From an uncultured Flavobacteriales bacterium (GTDB lineage: Bacteria > Bacteroidota > Bacteroidia > Flavobacteriales_E > Vicingaceae), in NCBI GenBank assembly GCA_905479995.1, contig CAJQON010000015.1, forward strand, positions 1-64,000: a stretch of 64,000 nucleotides of DNA. The letters run 5' to 3'. Both the position numbers and the translations under genes were made by a program. This document shows positions 54,640-56,959 of this stretch, piece by piece; positions within the stretch are counted from its first letter, which is position 1; the number at the start of each line of letters is the position of its first letter. Below the pieces are notes generated by a model, which had not been told where the DNA came from, did not search any database, and was given only the letters and a program-made list of their open reading frames with translations.

Positions 54640-55818
54640 ATGTTTCCTTACCTCTCTGACTTAACCAACTACCTTTTTGGATTTACCTTTTCGTTTCCCT
54701 TACCTATGTTTGGGTTTATGGTGGCCATTGCTTTTATAGTGGGTAATAATGTTTGGGTAAGAGAAATGAAGCGCAAAGAGGCTGATGGATTATTAACTTT
54801 TACCTTAGTGAAGGTAATGAAAGGCGCAAAAGCTAGTGTAAACGATTTAATTGGAAACGGAATTTTTGGTTTTGCTATAGGATATAAAATACTGGGAGTA
54901 GTCTTAAACTATTCAGAAATTACCAATGCAAAAGAAGGATTACCCGACTACATCTTGTCTTTAGAAGGTAGTTTTATTGGAGGAATAATTTTAGCTGCTA
55001 TAATGGTATATTTAAAATACCGAGAAGCAGAAAAACAACGCTTACCAAATCCAGTAGAGGTAGAAGAAAAAGTGCATCCTTATCAATTGGTAGGAACCAT
55101 GACTTTTATTGCTGCTATAGGTGGAATAATTGGTGCAAAGCTATTCGATGCAATAGAGCACATGGATCGATTAATTGAGGCTCCTATTGAAACGCTTTTC
55201 TCAGGTTCGGGATTAAGTATTTATGGTGGTTTAATAATTGGAGGTGGATCGGTTGTTTATTATGCTTATCTTAAAAAGATTAAAATTGTTCACGTTATCG
55301 ATTCTTGTGCACCTTGTTTAATGTTGGCTTATGGAATTGGTAGAATTGGTTGTCAGCTTTCTGGTGATGGTGATTGGGGAATGCCCAATGAATTACCAAT
55401 GCCAGATGTATTGAGCTTTTTGCCCGATTGGATGTGGAGCATGGATTATTTAGGAAATATTAATGGTGCCGATTTAGGTGCTCCAGGAAGACCAGTAGAA
55501 GTGATAGAAAGTGGAGTTGCATACATTTATGAAGGAAATGCTTGGCCAACCCCTTTTTATGAAACCATTATGGCATTCATCATTTTTGCAGGATTGTGGG
55601 CTTATCGTAAAAAAATAAAAATTGCTGGAGTCATGTTTTCCATCTATTTAATATTTAACGGAATAGAACGTTTTTTTATCGAGAAAATTAGAATCAACTC
55701 TAACTACGACTTATTTGGTTTAGAAGCTACCCAAGCTGAAATTATTGCCGTGCTGTTGTTTTTTGCTGGAATAGGAGGTATTATCTATTCCGTAAAATCG
55801 GCCAAGAAAAAAAAGTAG
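54640..55818 (+). CDS. lgt: Prolipoprotein diacylglyceryl transferase Lgt, Bacteroidota type
   Basis: A 392-residue inner-membrane enzyme with seven or more helices that adds diacylglycerol to the lipobox cysteine, the first step of lipoprotein maturation. The Lgt signature appears as YGIGRIGCQLSGDGDWG with the essential Arg, and there are conserved PTPFYE and NGIERFFIEKIR segments near the C-terminus. It is longer than E. coli Lgt (291 residues), with an insertion of polar residues around 130-145 and a long loop near 245-290. It starts 3 bp after the mtaB stop. The window encodes many lipoproteins that would be its substrates. Confidence 0.9.
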   Translation: MFPYLSDLTNYLFGFTFSFPLPMFGFMVAIAFIVGNNVWVREMKRKEADGLLTFTLVKVMKGAKASVNDLIGNGIFGFAIGYKILGVVLNYSEITNAKEGLPDYILSLEGSFIGGIILAAIMVYLKYREAEKQRLPNPVEVEEKVHPYQLVGTMTFIAAIGGIIGAKLFDAIEHMDRLIEAPIETLFSGSGLSIYGGLIIGGGSVVYYAYLKKIKIVHVIDSCAPCLMLAYGIGRIGCQLSGDGDWGMPNELPMPDVLSFLPDWMWSMDYLGNINGADLGAPGRPVEVIESGVAYIYEGNAWPTPFYETIMAFIIFAGLWAYRKKIKIAGVMFSIYLIFNGIERFFIEKIRINSNYDLFGLEATQAEIIAVLLFFAGIGGIIYSVKSAKKKK

Positions 55819-55893
55819 TATATTTATACCTATAAACATTATGGATCTGTATTGATCCGTAATGACCAATTTACTTAATTAACCAATTTCCCA

Positions 55894-56148
55894 ATGCTCA
55901 AAATCACCCTAATTGTGGTGTGTTCCACTATTCTAATTGCTTGTACAAAAAATGATACTAGCGTTTTACCAAAAAACAAAGAATTAAAAATTCCTGAAAC
56001 AGATTGTCCTCAGGCAGTTCCAGATTCAACTTGCTCTTGTAGTACTGTTGTTGATTTTGTATGTGGTTGCAATCAGCTGACCTATATAAATAGTTGCGAA
56101 GCTGAATGCAATGGAATTATCAAATACACTCAAGGACCTTGTAAATAA
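55894..56148 (+). CDS. Kazal-like lipoprotein 1
   Basis: An 84-residue lipoprotein with lipobox Cys17 (LIAC). The mature part carries a cysteine spacing like a Kazal serine-protease inhibitor domain (STVVDFVCGCNQLTYINSCE, then AECNGIIKYTQGPC), with the TY-x-N-x-C core. It lacks the usual GSDG before TY (here GCNQL). It lies 30 bp before a second Kazal-like lipoprotein gene. Protease inhibition at the cell surface is inferred from the fold. Confidence 0.75.
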   Translation: MLKITLIVVCSTILIACTKNDTSVLPKNKELKIPETDCPQAVPDSTCSCSTVVDFVCGCNQLTYINSCEAECNGIIKYTQGPCK

Positions 56149-56178
56149 ATAGTTATATAACAAATTAATATCCCAATT

Positions 56179-56397
56179 ATGAAAACGATTATCCCAATCT
56201 TATTTTTCACCTTTTTAATTATTTCCTGTAGTAAAGATGATTGTTCATCTATTGCAGAGCCAGGACATTCAACGTGTTTGTGTGCTGAAGACAATAGTCC
56301 CGTATGCGGAAGTGATGGAAAAACCTACTTAAATAGCTGTCAAGCCAATTGCTATGGTATTACCGCATATACTTCAGGAAAATGCGATTGTGATTAG
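56179..56397 (+). CDS. Kazal-type lipoprotein 2
   Basis: A 72-residue lipoprotein with lipobox Cys17 (IISC). The mature part is a nearly canonical Kazal domain: CLCAEDNSPVCGSDGKTYLN then SCQANCYGITAYTSGKC, with the PVCGSDGKTY-x-N-x-C hallmark. Kazal domains inhibit serine proteases with a reactive loop near the second or third cysteine. In bacteria they are uncommon, and a membrane-anchored single domain would protect the cell surface. The gene is tandem to the previous one and probably arose by duplication, although the two differ widely outside the cysteines. Confidence 0.82.
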   Translation: MKTIIPILFFTFLIISCSKDDCSSIAEPGHSTCLCAEDNSPVCGSDGKTYLNSCQANCYGITAYTSGKCDCD

Positions 56398-56491
56398 CTG
56401 ACAACTCTTTATTTTTGTTGATAAAATCCTTTAAAAATTAGGCACTGGTTTACCTAAAATGAGAAACTTTGTACTTCATTAAACTAGAAGT

Positions 56492-56959
56492 ATGTTCCAC
56501 CTTAAAGAAGGCGATAAAGCCCCAGATTTTAACATTACCGATCAAAACGGTAAAGTGCATCACATTGCAGATTATTCAGGAAAAAAACTCATCCTTTACT
56601 TTTATCCTAAAGACAATACTCCTGGATGTACCGTTCAATCGTGTAACTTAAGTTCCAATTATGAAACACTACAAAAAGAAGGTTTTGAAGTGTTAGGTGT
56701 AAGTGCAGATACAGAGAAAAAACACCAAGGTTTTATCAATAAATTTAACTTAGCGTTTAATTTATTAGCCGACACCGAACGAGAAGTTTTAACAAAATAT
56801 GGTGTTTGGGGAGAGAAGAAATTTATGGGGAAAACGTATGATGGAATTCATCGAACAACTTTTGTGATTGATGAAAATGGAATCATTGTTAAGATCATAA
56901 ATAAGGTAAAAACAAAAGACCATACACAACAAATTTTAGATTCTTTAGAGTTAGCTTAA
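56492..56959 (+). CDS. bcp: Thiol peroxidase Bcp (peroxiredoxin)
   Basis: A 155-residue peroxiredoxin of the Bcp/PrxQ class that reduces peroxides with thioredoxin. The peroxidatic cysteine is C46 (PKDNTPGCTVQSC) and the resolving cysteine is C51, giving the atypical 2-Cys helix form. The N-terminal GDKAPDFNITDQNG and the later GVWGEKKFMGKTYDGIHRTTFVID are typical. It lies upstream of recA, with a weak hairpin and T-rich run just after its stop. Confidence 0.94.
   Translation: MFHLKEGDKAPDFNITDQNGKVHHIADYSGKKLILYFYPKDNTPGCTVQSCNLSSNYETLQKEGFEVLGVSADTEKKHQGFINKFNLAFNLLADTEREVLTKYGVWGEKKFMGKTYDGIHRTTFVIDENGIIVKIINKVKTKDHTQQILDSLELA

Follow-up and report, generated by a model that had tools for sequence, protein, structure and literature searches.

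Kazal inhibitors have been studied mostly in animals and oomycetes. Among those described, the closest to the two bacterial proteins reported here, kaz1 and kaz2, is LDTI (2kmo, 1an1, 1ldt), a non-classical group II Kazal inhibitor that has the cysteine spacing and the helix at C4-x3-C5 in common with them, although at the position of the extra Cys59 of kaz1 it carries Ser. It is an animal protein, secreted and without a lipid anchor, with Lys at P1, whereas kaz1 and kaz2 are lipid-anchored. Domain 2 of CrSPI-1 from the horseshoe crab, as described in PMC3082530, is a subtilisin inhibitor with P1 Glu as in kaz2, but with P2' Tyr where kaz2 has Asn. The Kazal domains of EPI1 from Phytophthora also inhibit subtilisin; the 3-6 disulfide is missing from EPI1a, in contrast to kaz1 with its additional cysteine pair (EPI1 as described in PMC1236909). 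Both CrSPI-1 and EPI1 are eukaryotic two-domain proteins, in contrast to the bacterial, single-domain kaz1 and kaz2. The bacterial protein ecotin has a fold unrelated to Kazal and no lipid anchor. It is an envelope protein thought to shield the cell from serine proteases, like the role proposed here for the kaz proteins, but is described as periplasmic (PMC9904509), whereas an outer-membrane location is predicted for kaz1 and kaz2. Closer at hand, Bacteroidota relatives in Algoriphagus (L151), Runella (L165), Hymenobacter (L174) and Allomuricauda (L163) have a lipobox, a single domain and the form with an N-terminal Cys and the motif VCGC, but lack C1 and C5, both of which are present in kaz1 and kaz2.

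A prokaryotic Kazal protein has already been named in Nitrosomonas europaea (PMC1236909), and the description in PMC6697440 includes an annotated Kazal protein in a sponge-associated thaumarchaeon; "Kazal" in PMC11317156 proved to be an author's name and not a protein. Judged from titles and the beginnings of abstracts, the open-licence literature held nothing on bacterial Kazal lipoproteins; the motif VCGCDG was not found in the open-licence papers ranked highest for it or for Kazal, nor, in the papers searched, was any earlier description of a bacterial Kazal subtype with an extra coupled cysteine pair. The kaz proteins are a known fold in a less-studied setting, that of accessory, lipid-anchored, single-domain Kazal-type proteins, and offer a simple system for studying against what threats bacteria carry protease inhibitors on their surface.

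Fold and cysteine layout of kaz1 and kaz2

The preliminary description of two adjacent Kazal-type lipoprotein genes was borne out: two ORFs, 30 bases apart and both on the plus strand, lie between lgt and a bcp-type gene that is followed by recA (Table 1), and both encode a lipobox Cys17 and the spacing C-x-C-x7-C-x10-C-x3-C-x10-C, with the six cysteines in Kazal order. The signal peptides, read by eye, end in the lipoboxes ILIAC (kaz1) and LIISC (kaz2). The domain cysteines are C47, C49, C57, C59 (the extra one), C68, C72 and C83 in kaz1 and C33, C35, C43, C54, C58 and C69 in kaz2.

Table 1. Features of the kaz locus, in positions of the window (the whole stretch of 64,000 nucleotides that was analysed)
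Feature	Position	Strand	Basis or remark
lgt, prolipoprotein diacylglyceryl transferase, left slot flank	54640..55818	+	Pfam LGT 1.2e-34
kaz1	55894..56148	+	ORF, 84-aa lipoprotein, one short Kazal-type domain
kaz1 lipobox Cys17, predicted lipid attachment	55942..55944	+	sequence; next residues T-K-N-D, partial export signal
kaz1 extra N-terminal Cys38, predicted partner Cys59	56005..56007	+	column coupling in 97 relatives listed
kaz1 Kazal domain, residues 47-83	56032..56142	+	HMM alignment; Foldseek and VIA matches to LDTI
kaz1 predicted P1 Thr51	56044..56046	+	position C2+2, inferred from alignment with Kazal inhibitors
kaz2	56179..56397	+	ORF, 72-aa lipoprotein, one short Kazal-type domain
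kaz2 lipobox Cys17	56227..56229	+	sequence; next residues S-K-D-D match surface export signal C-X-K-(D/E)2
kaz2 extra N-terminal Cys22	56242..56244	+	usual partner column occupied by Ser45
kaz2 Kazal domain, residues 33-69	56275..56385	+	HMM alignment; Foldseek and VIA matches to LDTI
kaz2 predicted P1 Glu37	56287..56289	+	position C2+2; subtilisin precedent as described in PMC3082530
kaz2 extra C-terminal Cys71 (CDCD end)	56389..56391	+	sequence
bcp-type thioredoxin-dependent thiol peroxidase, right slot flank	56492..56959	+	NCBIfam NF006960 above cut-off; synteny

In the Pfam search kaz2 scored above the cut-offs of both Kazal_2 (30.1 bits, cut-off 22.8) and Kazal_1 (26.8 bits, cut-off 21), while kaz1 stayed below that of Kazal_2 (14.7 against 22.8 bits, E 0.034). 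By this test kaz1 is not a member; it is Kazal-type by its fold, its cysteine pattern and its sequence match in the PDB, where phmmer returned LDTI as the best match in an ungapped alignment (7.4e-6). For kaz2 the same search gave LDTI at 9.4e-9 and, better still, three-domain ovomucoid at 1.4e-10. Designed "Cake" repeats with high PDB scores for kaz2 were set aside as repeat artefacts without the cysteines, and an OAT match of kaz1 in NCBIfam, presumably caused by the Kazal-like loop of the OAT family, lay far below the family cut-off. A 42-row profile, with both proteins among its rows, found both in the genome (1.9e-22 and 1.9e-17), and the Pfam, PDB and profile matches together indicate that neither protein is a chance match.

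Structure prediction agreed with this assignment, in that the AlphaFold2 models of both proteins have the Kazal fold with LDTI as the top fold match. Mean confidence over blocks of the domain was 87-96 in kaz1 and 82-91 in kaz2, the remainder being weak. Foldseek placed LDTI first for both models with probability 1.00 (E 3.7e-3 and 9.9e-3), with no match for either at E <= 0.001; the chains are very short. VIA-align superposed 40 residues of each model on LDTI 1an1, with Z 6.0 and rmsd 1.6 for kaz1 and Z 5.3 and rmsd 1.1 for kaz2, values too low to carry the case for the fold by themselves, and tied LDTI with another Kazal inhibitor, Galleria silk inhibitor 2 (4hgu). With predicted models and sequence matches taken together, the Kazal fold of kaz1 and kaz2 can be regarded as safe, as can their lipid anchor. 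In the non-classical group II inhibitors LDTI and rhodniin the helix spans Cys-x3-Cys and is cross-linked by two disulfides, as described in PMC3082530; helices at residues 67-72 of the kaz1 model (CEAEC) and 53-58 of the kaz2 model (CQANC) fit this layout, with the cross-links only presumed.

The cysteines were compared across relatives. From 259 domain matches in 190 ORFs, 163 ORFs were single-domain, of which 121 were short with a lipobox called by a pattern of our own, and 107 of these were distinct; the 97 with model positions 13, 22 and 37 filled were kept, kaz1 and kaz2 included. The loci are not a random sample: one search kept the best 80 of 476 confirmed matches (79 loci), and its pattern accepted no residue but Cys or Ser at the key position, while the kaz2 search contributed 30 loci and 60 regions picked down the list among the matches listed. 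Of the 97 relatives listed, 89 have both the N-terminal Cys and the Cys two residues after Cys3 (the second of VCGC), 5 have neither, 2 have only the latter and 1 has only the former, so that the two are coupled in 94 of 97 (p 2e-6); C1 and C5 are both present in 41, both absent from 49, and found singly in 3 (C1) and 4 (C5) (p 5e-19), both p-values overstating the evidence because the relatives were found by similarity and are interrelated. For C2 and C4 no mixed case was seen in the same 97 (both 89, neither 8), nor for C3 and C6 among 239 domains listed (both 228, neither 11), and the number of mature cysteines minus that of the lipobox is even in 93 of 97. This pairwise loss fits, at the level of sequence, the pattern expected of the Kazal disulfides (1-5, 2-4 and 3-6) plus one more. 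A fourth, family-wide disulfide from the N-terminal Cys to the Cys after Cys3 is likely. The extra cysteines lie in low-confidence blocks of the models (means of 67 at kaz1 Cys38, 61 at kaz2 Cys22 and 62 at Cys71), so the models neither support nor refute it.

All eight cysteines of the family form are found in kaz1, including the N-terminal Cys and VCGC pair. Among the 97 relatives listed, kaz2 is the only one that has the N-terminal Cys and lacks the VCGC Cys, and it carries the extra C-terminal Cys71; it seems to have moved one partner to the C terminus, with Cys22-Cys71 as a possible pairing. The other two exceptions to the coupling (L015 and L021) look like secreted proteins in which the first Cys was mistaken for that of a lipobox. 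The two proteins set the common extra cysteine pair beside one that has apparently moved, a natural contrast within a family whose cysteine pairs, readable from joint loss, offer a system for following the stepwise rewiring of a disulfide fold. A further 136 domain rows were listed, 8 of them with a domain already counted in the 97 (that of kaz2 is one). Each of the 86 rows that carry the VCGC Cys also has a Cys at most 25 residues upstream; an upstream Cys is also found in 34 of the 50 without it, 28 of these 34 in multi-domain ORFs, so in these rows the pair rule is one-sided and not strict.

A truncated Kazal-like branch was also noted, with eleven members (L088, L069, L108, L084, L109, L097, L112, L116, L102, L100 and L087) that lack Cys3, Cys6 and the last strand. 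Domain positions 7 and 19 hold a new Cys pair in ten of the eleven; in L087 only position 19 was aligned. In three loci (L063, L085 and L095) the old pair is present beside the new one, and these look like intermediates.

Distribution of relatives and the lgt-bcp slot

Kazal inhibitors had been called uncommon in bacteria in the preliminary description, which does not hold for this class: the profile matched 162 of 395 genomes, about two fifths of those sampled, and kaz2 alone 128 of 395 (own genome counted in both), with many of the proteins small, single-domain and lipid-anchored. Widespread as they are in the class, their occurrence in closer relatives is patchy, with matches in 7 of 46 genomes of the family by the profile (5 of 46 with kaz1 as query; own genome counted) and in only 2 of 14 of the genus. 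This makes the function an accessory one: most of the genomes searched in the genus and family have no match to the profile. Among 11 genomes of the phylum searched with Pfam Kazal_2, the own genome alone was matched, and 14 named control genomes contained no Kazal matches. In alignment A2 both Kazal_1 and Kazal_2 match 41 of the 42 rows at E <= 0.01, the exception being kaz1, so most relatives can already be recognised as Kazal from sequence.

In 9 of the 13 other genomes of the genus, lgt and bcp share a contig. In 7 of these 9 the gap is 51-160 bases long and without a Kazal gene, with two genomes (G406 and G412) counted among the seven in which bcp is interrupted by the contig end with its start present. 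The gap of G402 measures 643 bases and holds a single Kazal gene, and in G405, a genome without any Kazal match, about 2.8 kb separate lgt from bcp, as judged from coordinates. Among the gaps read, Kazal genes were located between lgt and bcp only in the own genome and G402. An lgt tree of 18 rows, in which 8 of the 15 inner branches are open, joins G402 to a genome with an empty gap, G379 (support 99), and places both inside a group of seven rows (97) that excludes the window genome, so that G402 is not its sister. From this grouping of G402 with an empty-gap genome, apart from the window genome, we infer that the slot either received genes on more than one occasion or lost them several times. 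In the wider family, the gaps of G276 and G360 hold other DNA; in the G276 slot (L225) an open frame of about 200 codons without Kazal similarity lies on the opposite strand.

A recent tandem duplication is not indicated, since kaz1 and kaz2 are identical at only 18 of 37 domain positions, whereas each agrees at 24 of 37 with its own closest full-length relative domain among the matches listed. Mobile insertion into the gap was also considered and set aside: only short repeats were found (<=18 bases, at 83%), and base composition shows no clear shift. A sigma-70 promoter scan at the locus gave 6 sites against 4.6 in shuffles (sd 2.0), about the shuffle level. TAnnTTTG, a Bacteroidota promoter motif, was not found between lgt and kaz1 in a motif scan of the window; it occurs at 56410, upstream of bcp, where it carries little weight because it has 54 occurrences on the same strand of the window. 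Co-transcription of the kaz genes with lgt is possible, as a candidate only. Three terminator-like sites, against 0.5 from shuffles, were seen at 55843-56311 of the window, all on the minus strand and spanning the kaz pair.

Reactive loops, anchoring and proposed function

In the numbering described in PMC1236909 the loop has P3 at Cys2, which places P1 at Cys2+2, and P3 Cys and P15' Asn are given there as conserved Kazal contact residues; both are present in kaz1 and kaz2. The relatives listed keep a canonical loop, with Thr at P2 in 47 of 94, Tyr at P2' in 81 of 97, Pro at P4' in 91 of 97 and Asn at P15' in 96 of 97. Only three of the 37 columns vary more than P1 (3.18 bits). The commonest P1 residues in 96 relatives listed were Met (21), Glu (17), Gln (16), Lys (9), Ala (9), Thr (7) and Leu (6), with Lys and Arg together in 10 of 96. 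Such a spectrum would fit inhibitors directed mainly against subtilisin- or elastase-like, not trypsin-like, enzymes. The loop of kaz1 deviates at P2' (Val) and at P4', where Phe replaces Pro as the sole case in the 97 relatives listed, and that of kaz2 at P2' (Asn). Kazal domains with P1 Glu inhibit subtilisin, and the P2' Tyr of CrSPI-1 stacks on it, as described in PMC3082530, so loops without P2' Tyr may bind weakly; the departures argue for a predicted binding that is weaker or different.

The optimal surface export signal of Capnocytophaga is described in PMC5080379 as C-X-K-(D/E)2-X, and signals differ between species. The sequence C-S-K-D-D-C of kaz2 is an exact match, of which there are 11 among the 97 relatives listed (44 of 97 have Lys at +3), whereas C-T-K-N-D of kaz1, with one acidic residue only, does not match. 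The suggestion of a surface-anchored pair therefore holds for both proteins as to the lipobox and for kaz2 alone as to the export signal. With signals that vary between species the surface location of kaz2 is a prediction, and it is probably surface-exposed.

Five subtilase matches in the own genome fall in four ORFs, one of which holds two of them, and there is one Trypsin_2 match. Three of the four ORFs share the 199-kb contig with the kaz genes. Two subtilase genes stand in a row at 74176-79489 of contig C15 (L241), about 18-23 kb from the kaz genes, and their tails both look to us like type IX sorting tails. A link to these two genes (74-79.5 kb on the contig) was dropped: all 14 genomes of the genus have subtilases, whose presence does not account for the patchy occurrence of the Kazal genes. 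A linked protease as a guide to the target was likewise rejected after the flanks of 79 relatives (817,154 bases) had been scanned. In the flanks of these 79 loci (best of 476) no narrow subtilase or trypsin motif was found, and a broader motif in ORFs of at least 100 codons gave one subtilase and no trypsin; the HExxH zinc motif, in 20 ORFs, is too unspecific to count.

The explanation that we favour, with some confidence, is that kaz1 and kaz2 are outer-membrane-anchored canonical serine-protease inhibitors, with kaz2 probably exposed on the surface and aimed at subtilases. Lgt would add the lipid, and the proteins would go to the outer membrane, kaz2 probably to its outside. The rigid Cys2-Cys3 loop would mimic a substrate and occupy the active site of a serine protease. 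It is probable that kaz2 is an inhibitor of a serine protease, and its P1 Glu, by analogy, makes a subtilase the likely target; kaz1, with P1 Thr, would have a target different from that of kaz2. The pair would shield the cell surface from proteases that come from competitors, predators or hosts, or from subtilases that the cell itself secretes.

Alternatively, the Kazal fold may have been kept and inhibition lost, leaving small structural or binding modules on the surface like the Kazal-like domains of follistatin or OATP. Such modules would accord with two loops that are off consensus at P2', that of kaz1 also at P4', with the presence of follistatin and OATP transporter Kazal-like domains among the fold matches, and with the failure to find a linked protease in the scanned loci (best 80 of 476). 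We nevertheless consider this unlikely, if not negligible, since the relatives keep P2' Tyr, P4' Pro, P15' Asn and, in half, P2 Thr, with P1 varying as in inhibitors, and since the best fold matches by Foldseek and VIA (LDTI, Galleria silk inhibitor 2 and infestin 1) are true inhibitors.

As a special case of the inhibitor explanation, the proteins might serve self-protection only, shielding the envelope from the cell's own secreted subtilases. The four subtilase ORFs, three of them on the kaz contig and two in a row nearby, speak for this, as does a P1 Glu that suits subtilases as described in PMC3082530. Subtilases, however, occur in 14 of 14 genomes of the genus against 2 of 14 for the Kazal profile, and G407 and G409 have a subtilase on the lgt contig with the slot empty, so nearness is not tied to Kazal genes, and we think it rather improbable that self-protection is the whole role. 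It is more doubtful still that kaz1 is a decaying copy and kaz2 alone works: kaz1 does fall below the Pfam cut-off, and its P4' Phe, unique in the 97 relatives listed, and P2' Val could be signs of decay, but its eight family cysteines are intact, its domain is modelled with block means of 87-96, and the gene has no frameshift or stop.

For the Bacteroidota as a whole we put forward, tentatively and as a possibility that may well prove wrong, that their lipid-tethered Kazal inhibitors make up a large set, patchy in occurrence and quick to change, which has its own disulfide layout and arms the cell surface in a race against subtilases from the environment. In this layout the fourth bridge would run from the N terminus to the loop, often where the classical 1-5 bridge has been lost. 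This bridge would have shifted in kaz2, and in another branch 3-6 would have given way to a new pair, with the last strand lost.

Kazal domains with Ser at the position of the extra Cys were also seen in four loci (L121, L183, L123 and L130) on contigs labelled Woesearchaeota, Micrarchaeota, Halobacteriovoraceae and Peribacteraceae, labels that may be binning errors. Three very large Bacteroidota ORFs of 2547 (L120), 1048 (L153) and 1045 codons (L172) contain 13, 9 and 9 Kazal domains, with the VCGC Cys in 0 of 13, 3 of 9 and 3 of 9 domains, respectively.
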